Positions 52,953 to 58,729 of a DNA stretch of 64,000 nt are shown here, piece after piece. The position numbers and the translations under genes were made by a program. How positions within the stretch are numbered: the first letter of the stretch is position 1; the number at the start of each line of letters is the position of its first letter. This DNA is from Sporosarcina sp. Its GTDB lineage: Bacteria; Bacillota; Bacilli; Bacillales_A; Planococcaceae. The stretch is from contig JAPFCR010000043.1 of the NCBI GenBank assembly GCA_026169375.1, positions 1-64,000 on the forward strand, in the 5' to 3' direction. Below the pieces are notes generated by a model. That model searched no databases, was not told the origin of the DNA, and saw only the letters and a list, made by a program, of their open reading frames with translations.

Positions 52953-53075
52953 TTTAGAAATACATTTAAATAGTAAAAATAAGCTTTAAAAGTACATAAA
53001 TAGGTAATAGATAAGCAGGTCCTAATTACTTCTATATAAAGCGTTTTTTCTTAATTAAAATTATGTCATGATAGT

Positions 53076-53130
53076 TTGTGCCAAAAAGGTATTTTCTTTC
53101 AATTGTGAAAGGCATTGTGAACGCTTTAAA
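53076..53130 (+). promoter_or_regulatory. Candidate CcpA (cre) site and MtlR half-site upstream of mtlA
   Basis: TTGTGAACGCTTTAAA at 53115-53130 matches the cre consensus WTGNNARCGNWWWCAW with one mismatch. TTGTGCCAA at 53076-53084 matches one half of the MtlR operator (TGTGNCAA). The other half is not clear. Confidence 0.5.
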
Positions 53131-53199: not shown

Positions 53200-54981
53200 A
53201 TGGAAAATAATACAAATACCGAATCCGGTTGGAAAATGAAAGTACAAAGATTCGGTACTTTTTTAAGTGGAATGATTATGCCGAACATTGGTGCATTCAT
53301 TGCATGGGGTCTAATTACTGCTTTATTCATTCCAGATGGCTGGATTCCACATGAAGGGTTTGCTGAACTTGTTGATCCAATATTAACGTATTTACTACCG
53401 ATTTTAATTGGATTTACAGGTGGCCGAATGGTTTATGATATTCGAGGTGGGGTCGTAGGTGCGACGATTACAATGGGGGTTATTGTAGGTTCTGATATCC
53501 CAATGTTCCTCGGGGCCATGATTGTAGGTCCATTAGGTGGATGGATCATTAAACGATTTGATAAATTAATTGAAGGAAAAATTAAATCAGGCTTTGAAAT
53601 GCTTGTAAATAACTTCTCAGCAGGAATTATTGGAGGAGCATTAACACTTGTGGCGTACCAAGGAATTGGACCGCTTGTTGCTTCTTTGAACAAAGCACTT
53701 GCTGTTGGTGTTCAAGTAATTGTTGATGCGAATTTACTTCCAATTACAAGTATTTTTATTGAACCCGCTAAGATTTTATTCCTAAATAACGCAATTAACC
53801 ACGGGGTGCTCGGCCCAATCGGATTTGAGCAGGTGGGGGAAGCAGGAAAGTCAATCCTATTCTTATTAGAGTCGAATCCTGGTCCCGGACTTGGAATTTT
53901 ACTTGCTTATGTAGTCTTTGGAAGAGGATCAGCTAGACAGACAGCTTCTGGTGCAGCACTGATTCATTTTGTAGGTGGAATTCATGAGATTTATTTCCCG
54001 TATGTACTTATGCGACCACTTCTAATTGTGGCTGCGATTGCGGGAGGCGCGTCAGGTATTTTTATGTTCCAACTGATGGACGCTGGTTTAGTTGCTACAG
54101 CATCTCCGGGAAGTATTATCGCTTACTTTACGTTAACACCTAAAGGGAATTATCTTGCAATGATTGTTGGTGTACTCGTGGCAACAGTTGTATCATTCCT
54201 AATTGCTTCAATCATTTTAAAAACTGGAAAAGATACAGAGGAAGACGAAGATGAATTAGAAAAAGCAGCGAAAAAGACATCTGCATTAAAAGGAAAAGAA
54301 AGTCGTGCATCTTCACTTGTTCAAAAAACTGAGGGATCAGATTCAACAGGTATCAATTATGCAAATGTGAAAAGTATCATTTTTGCATGTGATGCCGGAA
54401 TGGGATCAAGTGCAATGGGCGCTGGTATCTTAAAGAATAAAGTGAAGAAAGCCGATTTAGATATCGACGTAACGAATATGGCAATTGCCAATTTACCAAA
54501 AGATGCTGAAATCGTCATTACGCACAAAGATTTAACAGATCGTGCGAAGAAGCAAGTGCCAAATGCAGAACATATCTCAGTAGAAAACTTCTTAAATAGT
54601 CCAAAATATGATGAGTTAATGACAAACTTAGAAGTGGCACAAGCTGACGGAAATGATCAAGAAGCATCAGATACTGAAACTCCAGATGCGGAACCGGCAT
54701 TAGACAATGTATCAAGTATTATTTTTGCATGTGATGCTGGAATGGGTTCAAGTGCGATGGGAGCGGGCATACTAAGAAATAAAGTAAAAGAAGCCGATTT
54801 AGATATTGCGGTATCTAACATGGCAATTTCGAATTTACCGAAAGATGCTGAAGTAGTCATTACCCATAAAGATTTAACAGGTCGTGCGAAGAAACAAGTA
54901 CCAGATGCATATCATATTTCAGTAGAAAACTTCTTGAACAGTCCGAAGTATGATGAGTTAATGGAGCAATTAAAAGAGTGA
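53200..54981 (+). CDS. mtlA: Mannitol PTS permease EIICB with tandem duplicated EIIB domain
   Basis: 593 aa, about 110-120 longer than usual EIICB-Mtl. EIIC membrane domain about 10-345 (FGTFLSGMIMPNIGAFIAWG start, GGIHEIYFPYV substrate loop). Charged linker about 346-388, EIIB-1 about 391-480 (phospho-Cys397 in ACDAGMGSSAMGA), acidic linker about 480-505, EIIB-2 about 505-593 (Cys511 in the same motif). The two EIIB copies differ at about 13 of 89 residues. Both keep the active Cys, so both can be phosphorylated by EIIA. aaaggag precedes ATG 53200. First gene of mtlARFD. Confidence 0.95.
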   Translation: MENNTNTESGWKMKVQRFGTFLSGMIMPNIGAFIAWGLITALFIPDGWIPHEGFAELVDPILTYLLPILIGFTGGRMVYDIRGGVVGATITMGVIVGSDIPMFLGAMIVGPLGGWIIKRFDKLIEGKIKSGFEMLVNNFSAGIIGGALTLVAYQGIGPLVASLNKALAVGVQVIVDANLLPITSIFIEPAKILFLNNAINHGVLGPIGFEQVGEAGKSILFLLESNPGPGLGILLAYVVFGRGSARQTASGAALIHFVGGIHEIYFPYVLMRPLLIVAAIAGGASGIFMFQLMDAGLVATASPGSIIAYFTLTPKGNYLAMIVGVLVATVVSFLIASIILKTGKDTEEDEDELEKAAKKTSALKGKESRASSLVQKTEGSDSTGINYANVKSIIFACDAGMGSSAMGAGILKNKVKKADLDIDVTNMAIANLPKDAEIVITHKDLTDRAKKQVPNAEHISVENFLNSPKYDELMTNLEVAQADGNDQEASDTETPDAEPALDNVSSIIFACDAGMGSSAMGAGILRNKVKEADLDIAVSNMAISNLPKDAEVVITHKDLTGRAKKQVPDAYHISVENFLNSPKYDELMEQLKE

Positions 54982-55037
54982 AAGCTTATAGTAAATTCCA
55001 AAAAATCGAATGAAAAGGTTCAACTGGAGTGTTAGGC

Positions 55038-57131
55038 ATGTATATTTCCGCTCGAGAAAAAATGATTATAGAAAAATTATTAAGCGTGCCCGAAGAAATA
55101 ACAATTCAAGAATTAGCGAAAGAAATTGCAGTCAGTTCTCGAACAATTCATCGTGATTTAAAAGGGATTGAAAGTTTTTTACAAACGTATCACTTAGAGC
55201 TGACAAGAAAAACAGGAAGAGGTATACAAATTACAGGTTCAGTAGAAAATAAAGATTTGTTAAAGCGAAAATTAATGACTTTCACGCTACAAGATTATAT
55301 GGCTGAAGAAAGGCAAACATTATTGTTAAGCATGCTTTATGACGCGGCTGGACCTGTAAAACTTTTTACATTAGCAAATGAACTGAAAGTAACTGCAGCA
55401 ACCATTAGTAATGATTTACTTAAATTAGAAGAAGAGCTTGAACACTTTCAATTGTCAATTATCCGAAAGCGTGGTTACGGCATTGAATTGAGCGGTACTG
55501 AAGAAGCAAAGCGTAGGGCCATTAGTTATATTATTTCAAAATCCTTAAATGAGGATGAGTTTCTATCACTTATACGACGGAATATTGAAAGAAAATCAAC
55601 TGTCCAAAACAATGCGATTTCAGAACGATTACTTCATCTTGTCGATCGTGAAAAAGTGTTAATCATTGAAGAAACGATCCGACATTTTCACGAAGCGCTT
55701 TTAAGTTCTATGACAGAAACTGCTTATGTCGGGCTCATTGTACACTTAACACTCGCTATTGATCGAATTCAGCGGGGAGAAAAAATTGAAATGGAGCCTG
55801 ATTTTTTAACAGGATTGAAGAAAGAAGTTGAATACGATACCGCAAAAGAAATGATTCAACAATTGGCGAATCGATTTAACATTGATATTCCGGAAGCTGA
55901 AGTAGGTTATATAACCATGCATCTTCAAGGGGCTAAGGTAAGAGAATATGAAGAGTACTCTTTAGAAGACGCACATATGAAAGTGGTTATACAGGCGAGA
56001 CAGTTAATTCAAGAAGTTGAAACGTTAATAAATATTAAGTTGACAAATCACGCACCGTTATTGGAAGGGTTAGTGACCCATTTAAAACCTGCGTTGTATC
56101 GAATTGAGCAAAAGATGGGCATTCGAAATCCATTATTGAAAAACATAAAGGAAGATTATGAAGACCTTTTTCAAATCGTAACGATAGCATCTGAAAATGT
56201 TTTTCGGGATATAAAGATTCCAGACGAAGAAATAGGCTTTTTAGTTTTACATTTTGGCGCTGCAATTCTAGGACTTGAAAAAGCAGGGAATTTAACCGCT
56301 TACGTTGTTTGTTCAAGTGGGATTGGCACATCGAAAATGTTAGCGATGCAGCTAAGACGTGAAGTTCCAGAGATTCAAGAAATTCGAAATGTGTCCGCAT
56401 TTGAATTAATAAATCATCCTATTTCGGAACATGATCTAGTCATCTCTACGATTCGTTTAACAGATGTACCATTTGAATATTTAATTGTTAGTCCCTTTCT
56501 CACTGAAGAAGAGGTGCAACAAGTGCAAATGTTTGCGAAAAGAAAGTTACTCATTCAAAACGAAACGAAGCCTGCTAAACAAGACCTTACTTCAAATGGA
56601 AAATGCGCGACGAGCCGGATGCATGCAATTCAAGCATATAGTGGTGCAATGGCTGCGCTATTAGAAAACTTTGCGGTGATGAAAATTGAAAATAAACAAC
56701 CAATTCAACAATCGATTTATGAAGTTTGTGAAAAGTTAGCAGTGAGTCATATCATTCAAGACGCGGGTGAAATTGCAAAAGCTTTATTTGAACGTGAAGC
56801 ATTGGGAAGTTTAGGAATCCCTGAAACGGATATGGTTCTATTTCATACGAAACATCGAGGGGTTTTAAAACCTTCGTTTACAATGTATCAAATAAGGGAA
56901 CCCATTGTAATGAGCGCAATGGATGGAACCGATATTGAAGTGACAACGATCTTACTATTATTAGCACCAGAGCCGTATCATTCATACGGTATGGAAGTAT
57001 TAAGTTTGATGAGTTCGATCATTATTGAAAATGAAAAAAGCATTGATTTATTTCAATCGGCTAATGAGAAATTGATTCATGCGCATATTGGAAAAAAATT
57101 CGAACAATTTCTTTATGAAAAAATAAAATAA
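55038..57131 (+). CDS. mtlR: Mannitol operon activator MtlR (HTH-PRD-EIIB-EIIA)
   Basis: 697 aa. Two helix-turn-helix units (about 5-60 and 85-140), PRD1 (about 185-285) and PRD2 (about 295-400) with regulatory His, an EIIB-Gat-like domain (about 405-495, VVCSSGIGTSKMLAMQL with Cys), and an EIIA-Mtl-like domain (about 545-697). It activates the mtl promoter when PRD2 is phosphorylated by HPr and the EIIB site is dephosphorylated. ATG 55038 has ctggag eight bases upstream; a GTG nine bases earlier sits on the site. Confidence 0.94.
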   Translation: MYISAREKMIIEKLLSVPEEITIQELAKEIAVSSRTIHRDLKGIESFLQTYHLELTRKTGRGIQITGSVENKDLLKRKLMTFTLQDYMAEERQTLLLSMLYDAAGPVKLFTLANELKVTAATISNDLLKLEEELEHFQLSIIRKRGYGIELSGTEEAKRRAISYIISKSLNEDEFLSLIRRNIERKSTVQNNAISERLLHLVDREKVLIIEETIRHFHEALLSSMTETAYVGLIVHLTLAIDRIQRGEKIEMEPDFLTGLKKEVEYDTAKEMIQQLANRFNIDIPEAEVGYITMHLQGAKVREYEEYSLEDAHMKVVIQARQLIQEVETLINIKLTNHAPLLEGLVTHLKPALYRIEQKMGIRNPLLKNIKEDYEDLFQIVTIASENVFRDIKIPDEEIGFLVLHFGAAILGLEKAGNLTAYVVCSSGIGTSKMLAMQLRREVPEIQEIRNVSAFELINHPISEHDLVISTIRLTDVPFEYLIVSPFLTEEEVQQVQMFAKRKLLIQNETKPAKQDLTSNGKCATSRMHAIQAYSGAMAALLENFAVMKIENKQPIQQSIYEVCEKLAVSHIIQDAGEIAKALFEREALGSLGIPETDMVLFHTKHRGVLKPSFTMYQIREPIVMSAMDGTDIEVTTILLLLAPEPYHSYGMEVLSLMSSIIIENEKSIDLFQSANEKLIHAHIGKKFEQFLYEKIK

Positions 57132-57147
57132 TTTAGGAGTGTTTATT

Positions 57148-57579
57148 ATGTCAGTATTATCAGTAGAAAACATCGTATTAAATAAAGAGTTATCAACAAT
57201 GGAAGAAGCGATTCGCTTTACAGGACAAGTACTCGTTGATAAAGGATATGTTGAACCAGCATATATCGAAAAAATGTTGGAACGTGAAGAGATGACATCT
57301 ACTTTCATGGGGAACTCTGTAGCGATTCCACACGGAACAGATGACGCGAAAAAAGAAGTGAAAAAATCAGGACTTGCGATTGTTCAAGTTCCAGCAGGTG
57401 TTGATTTTGGCGATGGCAATATGGCTAAATTACTAATCGGAATTGCTGGTAAAGGCGATGAGCATTTAGAAATTTTATCAAATATCGCAGTCGTTGTTGC
57501 AGATGCAGATAATGTAGAAAAAATAGTGAATGCAAAAACAGCAGAAGAAGTTATGGGATTCTTTGAAGGAGTGAATTAA
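57148..57579 (+). CDS. mtlF: Mannitol PTS EIIA component
   Basis: 143 aa. The EIIA-Mtl/Fru fold with phospho-His in VAIPHGTDDAKK and LLIGIAGKGDEHLEIL. Passes phosphate from HPr to the EIIB domains of MtlA. ttaggag eight bases before ATG 57148; the nine-base-earlier GTG lies on the ribosome site. Sixteen bases after mtlR and one base before mtlD. Confidence 0.95.
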   Translation: MSVLSVENIVLNKELSTMEEAIRFTGQVLVDKGYVEPAYIEKMLEREEMTSTFMGNSVAIPHGTDDAKKEVKKSGLAIVQVPAGVDFGDGNMAKLLIGIAGKGDEHLEILSNIAVVVADADNVEKIVNAKTAEEVMGFFEGVN

Positions 57580-57580
57580 C

Positions 57581-58729
57581 ATGAAAGCTGTTCATTTTGG
57601 AGCAGGGAATATTGGAAGAGGATTTATTGGCAAATTATTATATGAATCAGGATTCGAAACGTGCTTCATAGATGTGAACAGAAATATTGTTGATTTATTG
57701 AATGAGAAGAAAGAATATCGTGTACAACTTGCAAATGAGACGAAAGATGAAACGCTTGTGAAAAATGTATGGGCGATTAACAGTGCAGAAGATCCGAATT
57801 TAGTCGTTGAAGAAATTGCACAATCGGATATCTTAACAGCAGCAGTCGGTGCAAATATTTTACCCCATATATCAAATCTCATTGCAGATGGACTAAAACA
57901 ACGATTACAAACGTCGAATAATCCCCTCACGATTATTGCGTGTGAAAATATGGTCGGCGGAACTGACTTTTTAAAAGAAAAAATTTATGAACATTTATCA
58001 GAAGAAGAAAAAGCACAGTTTGATAAAGTTTATAGTTTCCCAAATGCTGCAGTCGATCGTATCGTTCCAAATCAAAACAACGAGGATCCTTTACTCGTAC
58101 AAGTTGAGCCTTTCTTTGAATGGGTAGTCGACGAATCAGGTATTCAAGGAGAAAATCCGCCTATTGAAGGTGTAACGTTCGTCGAGGACTTAACACCGTT
58201 TATTGAAAGAAAACTTTTCACAGTGAATACTGGGCACGCAACAGCGGCGTATTTAGGTTATGCCGAGGGTATCCCAGCAATTCATGAGGCGCTTGCAAAT
58301 CAAGATATTAAAGAAGCGATGAAAAAAACGTTGCAAGAAACTGGGAGATTACTCATTGAAAAATATACGTTTAATGAAGAAGAACACCAAACGTATATTG
58401 AAACAATTATTGGTCGATTTGCGAATCCATTCATTTACGACGAAGTGACAAGAGTAGGACGTTCGCCCATTCGTAAACTTCAAGCAAATGATCGTTTCCT
58501 TAGCCCAGCGAAGCAATATACAAAAGCTTTTGGTGAAGTTCCTGAACATTTAACGAAAGCAATCGCAACTGCTTTCCATTTTGATTTTGAAGAAGATCCA
58601 GACGCAGTGAAAATTCAAGAGACGATTCAAGATGAAGGCATTGATGTTGCAATTGAAACATATACAGAACTTACACCTGAGTCAGAACTTTTCCAAGCAA
58701 TTCGAAAGCAATATGAAGCGTTAAAATAA
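57581..58729 (+). CDS. mtlD: Mannitol-1-phosphate 5-dehydrogenase
   Basis: 382 aa. N-terminal Rossmann motif FGAGNIGRGFIGKLL, the conserved ACENMVGGTDFLK and FPNAAVDRIVP blocks, and the catalytic Lys region ERKLFTVNTGHATAAYLGY. Oxidises mannitol-1-phosphate to fructose-6-phosphate. Start ATG 57581 with ggagtg inside the end of mtlF. Last gene of the operon, with a terminator after it. Confidence 0.96.
   Translation: MKAVHFGAGNIGRGFIGKLLYESGFETCFIDVNRNIVDLLNEKKEYRVQLANETKDETLVKNVWAINSAEDPNLVVEEIAQSDILTAAVGANILPHISNLIADGLKQRLQTSNNPLTIIACENMVGGTDFLKEKIYEHLSEEEKAQFDKVYSFPNAAVDRIVPNQNNEDPLLVQVEPFFEWVVDESGIQGENPPIEGVTFVEDLTPFIERKLFTVNTGHATAAYLGYAEGIPAIHEALANQDIKEAMKKTLQETGRLLIEKYTFNEEEHQTYIETIIGRFANPFIYDEVTRVGRSPIRKLQANDRFLSPAKQYTKAFGEVPEHLTKAIATAFHFDFEEDPDAVKIQETIQDEGIDVAIETYTELTPESELFQAIRKQYEALK

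Follow-up and report, generated by a model that had tools for sequence, protein, structure and literature searches.

The DNA analysed here, a stretch of 64,000 nucleotides from a 51-contig draft genome of Sporosarcina sp., is referred to as the window. It contains the gene cluster mtlA-mtlR-mtlF-mtlD, and its mtlA is the sole copy in the draft genome. The features of the cluster, with the evidence for each in brackets, are as follows:

53200..54981, plus strand: mtlA, an EIIC-EIIB-EIIB mannitol permease of 593 aa (ORF starting with ATG, Pfam, NCBIfam)
53212..54249, plus strand: EIIC (membrane) domain, approximately residues 5-350 (HMM and BLAST boundaries; TIGR00851 matches residues 14-350)
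54358..54633, plus strand: EIIB copy 1 (B1), active Cys397 at 54388-54390 (DNA repeat, Pfam, conserved positions)
54634..54699, plus strand: inter-EIIB linker VAQADGNDQEASDTETPDAEPA, 22 aa, 7 acidic and 0 basic (sequence)
54700..54975, plus strand: EIIB copy 2 (B2), active Cys511 at 54730-54732 (DNA repeat, Pfam, conserved positions)
55029..57131, plus strand: mtlR-like activator with HTH, Mga HTH, two PRDs, an EIIB-like part (VVCSSG) and an EIIA-like part (ORF, Pfam)
57139..57579, plus strand: mtlF, encoding a stand-alone EIIA (PTS_EIIA_2) that presumably donates phosphate to B1 and B2 (Pfam, NCBIfam)
57581..58729, plus strand: mtlD, mannitol-1-phosphate dehydrogenase, Mannitol_dh (Pfam)

Pfam detected one PTS_EIIC and two PTS_IIB stretches in MtlA, as opposed to the single EIIB of the mannitol EIICB permeases. 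The membrane domain was of the mannitol type, scoring 566 bits with TIGR00851 (mannitol IIC, cut-off 468), and the protein was also above the cut-off of NF011663. The best NCBIfam subfamily match names the protein IICBA, a name that is misleading for annotators, the third domain being a second EIIB and no EIIA being found in it by Pfam. The EIIB-like match in the mtlR product (22.9 bits) was slightly below its Pfam cut-off of 23.6, and two genes of the HPr family were found in the host genome. A scan for sigma-70 promoters gave no signal (15 matches versus 19.9 in shuffled sequences). Upstream of mtlA, the sequence TTATGTCATGATAGTTTGTGCCAA at 53061-53084 resembles the MtlR box of B. subtilis; since the search pattern was partly shaped on the window itself, a chance estimate for this site does not constitute a test.

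At the DNA level, the two EIIB domains appeared as a repeat of 271 nt (54364-54634 and 54706-54976) with 83% identity and a spacing of 342 nt, and just upstream of it, at the same offset, the identity fell to 7-9 of 30 bases. Over the whole domains, 77 of 92 residues (84%) and 82% of the DNA were identical. The original prediction of two tandem EIIB domains, about 85% identical and with similar DNA, was therefore borne out, as were the in-frame duplication that it proposed and the active site CDAGMGSSAMGA that it placed in both copies, at Cys397 and Cys511, 114 residues apart. It had also proposed a duplicated unit of about 340 bp with a new acidic linker; the linker stood, being unlike the one between EIIC and EIIB, but the unit was reduced to the EIIB of about 275 bp.

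Given that the genome is a draft, such a repeat might in principle be produced or collapsed during assembly. However, 51 of the 276 bases differ between B1 and B2, 33 of them at third codon positions (39 codons differ, 24 of them silently), and the same layout was found in the sister species G015 and in another 12 MtlAs from other genomes in which both cysteines are kept. The divergence of the copies together with the recurrence of the layout makes an assembly artefact very unlikely, to the point of being negligible.

Both copies of the window look functional and neither of them looks decayed. B1 and B2 each keep 22/22 of the positions conserved in at least 95% of 155 single EIIBs, and they scored 152 and 149 bits, respectively, with an EIIB profile that has both of them among its rows (single-EIIB median, 150). 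The comparison of B1 with B2 gave a pS of 0.53, a dS of 0.93, a dN of 0.10 and a dN/dS of 0.11; the dS values between species were mostly near saturation and thus rough. Unless gene conversion misleads, this dS and dN/dS indicate that the duplication is not recent and that selection held both copies. The qualification of the event as recent was hence abandoned, the architecture being, moreover, common to G015. The dN/dS and the conserved positions support the conclusion that purifying selection has maintained B1 and B2 alike.

The distribution of two-EIIB permeases was analyzed at several levels. In the genome itself and 200 relatives, 56 of 201 genomes had a match. Two EIIBs were present in the window and in G015 and one in the other nine of the 11 MtlA ORFs fetched from the same genus, a sample in which two further genomes gave fragments only and a second, distant MtlA of G014 was left out. 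A search of 261 genomes of the order matched 62, with both copies covered only in G000 and G015. When 398 genomes of Bacilli were searched with an EIIB-EIIB query, 224 were matched, and at least 15 of these genomes had matches covering both copies, all confirmed as two-domain ORFs. In a collection of named genomes, of whose 580 related places the 80 best were considered, the hosts of two-EIIB permeases were Priestia abyssalis, Bacillus sp. FJAT-14578, Alkalihalobacillus sp. CinArs1, Bacillus taeanensis, Oceanobacillus indicireducens, Shouchella shacheensis, Tetragenococcus halophilus, Enterococcus sp. 669A and Sedimentibacter sp. SX930.

Altogether, the 214 loci yielded 183 distinct MtlA-like ORFs of 300 aa or more, not one of which lies within another; two EIIBs were present in 27 of them, one in 155 and none in one. 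The proportion 27/183 is not a prevalence, because the loci were gathered by a two-EIIB query and some were fetched for looking doubled. This search of homologues for domain count, which had been recommended beforehand, also divided the claim that known mannitol permeases have a single EIIB: it agrees with the literature, as far as its accessible part goes, but not with the sequences. The streptococcal MtlA, at about 589 aa, would have length enough for a second domain.

The 27 two-EIIB permeases fell into two classes: 14 kept both cysteines (hereafter twins) and 13 had lost the second one while keeping that of B1 (hereafter pseudo). Among L031-L037 and L047, several named hosts of twins (Alkalihalobacillus, Oceanobacillus, Tetragenococcus halophilus and others) appear, judged by name, to be salt- or alkali-loving; many rows with a single EIIB are from genera of this kind too. 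The record L036 is titled Arthrobacter beigongshangensis and carries a mtlA-mtlR-mtlF-mtlD cluster at most 74% identical to that of the window; it is possibly mislabelled or contaminated. This gene order was found in 10/11 twins and 49/69 singles (two rows untyped), and no association between the twin architecture and gene order was seen in the 94 of 214 loci compared, mostly those with long flanks.

B1-B2 identity in the 10 twins measured ranged from 61 to 86%. In the pseudo class (for example L066, L089, L132, L181, L192, L202 and L208-L213), seven of whose 13 members belong to genus g45, the aligned cysteine column of the second EIIB is occupied by Tyr, His, Ala or Phe. This second domain kept 106 of the 286 conserved cells, versus 255/286 in the first, and Pfam, at E up to 1, recognized it in two of the three proteins scanned and missed it in the other. 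Sedimentibacter sp. SX930 (L089) and G888 (L212 and L213) each carry two genes for MtlA, and in both genes the second EIIB is Cys-less. Acidic residues exceeded basic ones in the linkers of 14/14 twins and in 11 of the 12 pseudo linkers examined; the acidic linker is thus not specific to the twins.

In two close pairs of orthologues of the pseudo class, the second EIIB has changed faster than the first: 88/95 and 79/94 residues were identical in the second domain, versus 93/93 and 91/93 in the first. Nevertheless, its dN/dS in these pairs was 0.036 and 0.060 (dS was saturated for this domain in the remaining pairs tried), so that it is constrained, if more loosely, and may have become a docking-only domain. 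In a quick EIIC tree, Tetragenococcus, with both cysteines kept, was placed within a set of pseudo proteins that comprises 12 of the 13. This placement would fit a decay from twin to pseudo, which we propose as a hypothesis; in the EIIB tree, however, its second EIIB stood apart from those of the pseudo class, long branches making that tree unsafe.

The number of origins was addressed with trees of both domains. On an EIIC tree of 182 rows, the twins required a minimum of 7 changes, and well-supported branches forced 4 of these. A more careful EIIC tree of 62 of these rows (14/14 twins, 3/13 pseudo and 45/155 singles, with twelve long rows outside the random draw of singles) required a minimum of 8 changes, 5 of them so forced. 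Topology tests, run after quick trees had been inspected and without Tetragenococcus, rejected a single clade of the 13 twins both on EIIC (p-AU 2e-13) and on EIIB (p-AU 1.9e-5), and a single clade of all 13 second EIIBs on the EIIB tree (p-AU 4e-6). The EIIB set for these tests consisted of the twins and 22 chosen single EIIBs, without pseudo rows.

In the EIIB trees, which have about 92 columns and many weak forks, the four EIIB domains from the window and from G015 clustered together (97/94), surrounded by single EIIBs from their own genus; within this cluster, B1 was paired with B1 (99/90) and, weakly, B2 with B2 (87/41). Most likely, then, the duplication arose in the ancestor of these two species. 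The copies of g352 (100/99) and of Alkalihalobacillus (97/93) also grouped by lineage, as did, with weaker support, those of B. taeanensis and Oceanobacillus. The copies of Priestia/FJAT-14578, Shouchella/G844 and G170 did not pair within the protein, which points to older or more complex events. Additionally, Alkalihalobacillus, B. taeanensis, Shouchella and G844 came together in the quick EIIC tree (support 75) and may share one doubling; the doublings are therefore counted as several, without a number. Since both trees reject a single twin clade, several separate doublings of EIIB among the MtlAs are likely.

A single ancient duplication followed by many losses could give the same picture if gene conversion between the copies mimicked independence. 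Some signs of conversion were indeed detected. At silent sites within the window gene, 49 of 73 codons were identical between B1 and B2 (random choice, 35.6; sd 3.8), 3.5 sd above random, and within that of G015 46 of 73 (random choice, 38.2; sd 3.4), about 2.3 sd above. Across the two species the orthologous copies shared 39/77 and 40/74 codons, near random, although the proteins pair B1 with B1 and B2 with B2. The site patterns of this pair were few, with 11 concerted, 7 orthologous and 6 crossed; at third positions they were 9, 1 and 6, respectively. The excess of likeness within each gene over that across species is suggestive of partial conversion in the window lineage. In the g352 pairs, concerted sites numbered 2, 3 and 4, versus 20, 15 and 21 orthologous ones, and in the pair L151-L152 the central part of the domain had no orthologous sites, a gap that conversion could explain; in Shouchella/G844 there were 12 concerted and 26 orthologous sites. 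By contrast, Priestia abyssalis and FJAT-14578 showed no sign of conversion (35 orthologous sites versus 1 concerted). The EIIC tree, moreover, is beyond the reach of conversion in EIIB and equally rejects one twin clade, and many losses would be required. A single ancient origin is accordingly held to be quite improbable.

It could also be argued that the doublings have no function at all, short in-frame repeats being frequent, harmless and able to persist. Tandem duplication is a common mutation, and its repetition may partly reflect the mutation rate; the scattered distribution, the sister species with a single EIIB and the several doublings would all fit. Against this, a copy without function should already have decayed at the divergence seen between B1 and B2, unless conversion repairs it, yet the window copies combine a low dN/dS with intact conserved positions. 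Two EIIBs were, in addition, retained in 3/3 matching g352 genomes and in Priestia abyssalis as well as Bacillus sp. FJAT-14578. A neutral duplication is thus considered unlikely. The repeated doubling instead suggests a benefit of the extra copy, for uptake or for mannitol sensing, even though nine of the ten other loci fetched from the same genus manage with one EIIB.

What a second EIIB might do can be discussed in the light of the relationship between the permease and MtlR. In B. subtilis, the EII domains of MtlR are described as tethering it to the membrane via the mannitol permease, a tethering that its activity requires (PMC8560693), in agreement with the link to MtlR made in the prediction. 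The title of Bouraoui 2013, cited there, names the EIIB domain. EIIB of MtlA and MtlR are stated to meet at the membrane (PMC8560693; PMC6148471), and a cytoplasmic EIIB-Mtl to be non-functional until fused to a membrane domain (PMC6148471). On the other hand, the permease is reported to phosphorylate MtlR and thereby inactivate it, and deletion of mtlAF to render the mtl promoter constitutive (PMC3217849), indicating that the permease also inhibits. Tethering and inactivation together make EIIB both a carrier and a sensor.

We propose, with roughly even confidence, that both EIIBs of the window permease are phospho-carriers fed by MtlF that in addition offer two docking or phospho-transfer sites to MtlR. 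B1 and B2 would each take phosphate from MtlF on their own cysteine, and either could pass it to mannitol in EIIC, B2 serving as a second carrier on a flexible acidic tether. The two sites offered to MtlR would make the induction by mannitol sharper or stronger. The genes for the donor (mtlF), the regulator (mtlR) and the dehydrogenase (mtlD) all lie beside mtlA according to Pfam. A gain in flux from the second carrier is uncertain, because EIIC is not duplicated. Likewise, the constitutive promoter of the mtlAF deletion implies that EIIB is not simply an activating dock, so that a second EIIB could either strengthen or weaken induction.

A tethered second EIIB could add a carrier, a regulator site, or both, and the two roles may have been divided between the copies, one EIIB (probably B1, which adjoins EIIC) phosphorylating the sugar and the other mainly docking MtlR or MtlF. 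The 13 permeases with a Cys-less second EIIB and a kept B1 cysteine, including the two close pairs under purifying selection, argue for this division, and the extra IIB' of FruA is said to serve protein-protein interactions and not phosphoryl transfer (PMC6872149). The window copies, with their cysteines and conserved positions, show no sign of lost catalysis, and FruA transporters are reported to contain duplicated IIB domains of which, in E. coli, both are required for full activity (PMC2405797). For the window permease, such a division is possible, but we lean against it. The repeated doubling and the Cys-less second EIIBs together argue for a benefit of the second EIIB that consists, at least in part, in docking; the Cys-less domains suggest that in relatives a part without phosphate transfer can suffice to keep the domain. 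Since neither window copy has decayed, the window itself favours both roles, those of carrier and of regulator site.

More tentatively, Bacilli may, on repeated occasions, have made a signalling transporter with two EIIBs out of the mannitol permease, proceeding from an active twin to a Cys-less docking domain that would be the counterpart, by convergence, of the IIB' of FruA. The starting state would be represented by the window, G015, Priestia, Oceanobacillus, Alkalihalobacillus and others. In the end state (Enterococcus sp. 669A, g45 and others), the second EIIB would be permanently unphosphorylated and would keep MtlR or MtlF membrane-bound independently of sugar flux. The mannitol permeases, ranging from active twin to Cys-less, offer a natural series separating the role of EIIB as phosphate carrier from its role as membrane partner of MtlR.

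Searches of the open literature, most subscription journals being outside its scope, gave no paper recognizable as dealing with a doubled mannitol EIIB; a hit on 'IICBB' proved to be FruA, and in the relevant text of PMC6872149 a doubled IIB is stated for FruA alone. Compared with known systems, the window permease shares with MtlA of B. subtilis the EIIC and EIIB families, the active-site motif, a separate MtlF and an MtlR of the PRD/EIIB/EIIA type, but differs from it in having two EIIBs, the B. subtilis protein being listed as EIICB with one (PMC6148471). With E. coli FruA, written IICBB', it shares two IIB domains in one permease and the fructose-mannitol family, but FruA has a fructose-type IIC, while that of the window is of the mannitol type. 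The extra IIB' of FruA is located at the N-terminus; that of the window is C-terminal, after B1, resembles B1 closely and keeps its cysteine. The likeness to E. coli MtlA (EIICBA) lies in the sequence of IIB (structures 1vkr, 1vrv and 2few, E 1e-29), and in that protein EIIA follows EIIB, where the window MtlA has its second EIIB. The doubled IIB was already known in FruA, and what appears to be new is the mannitol permease with a second EIIB.
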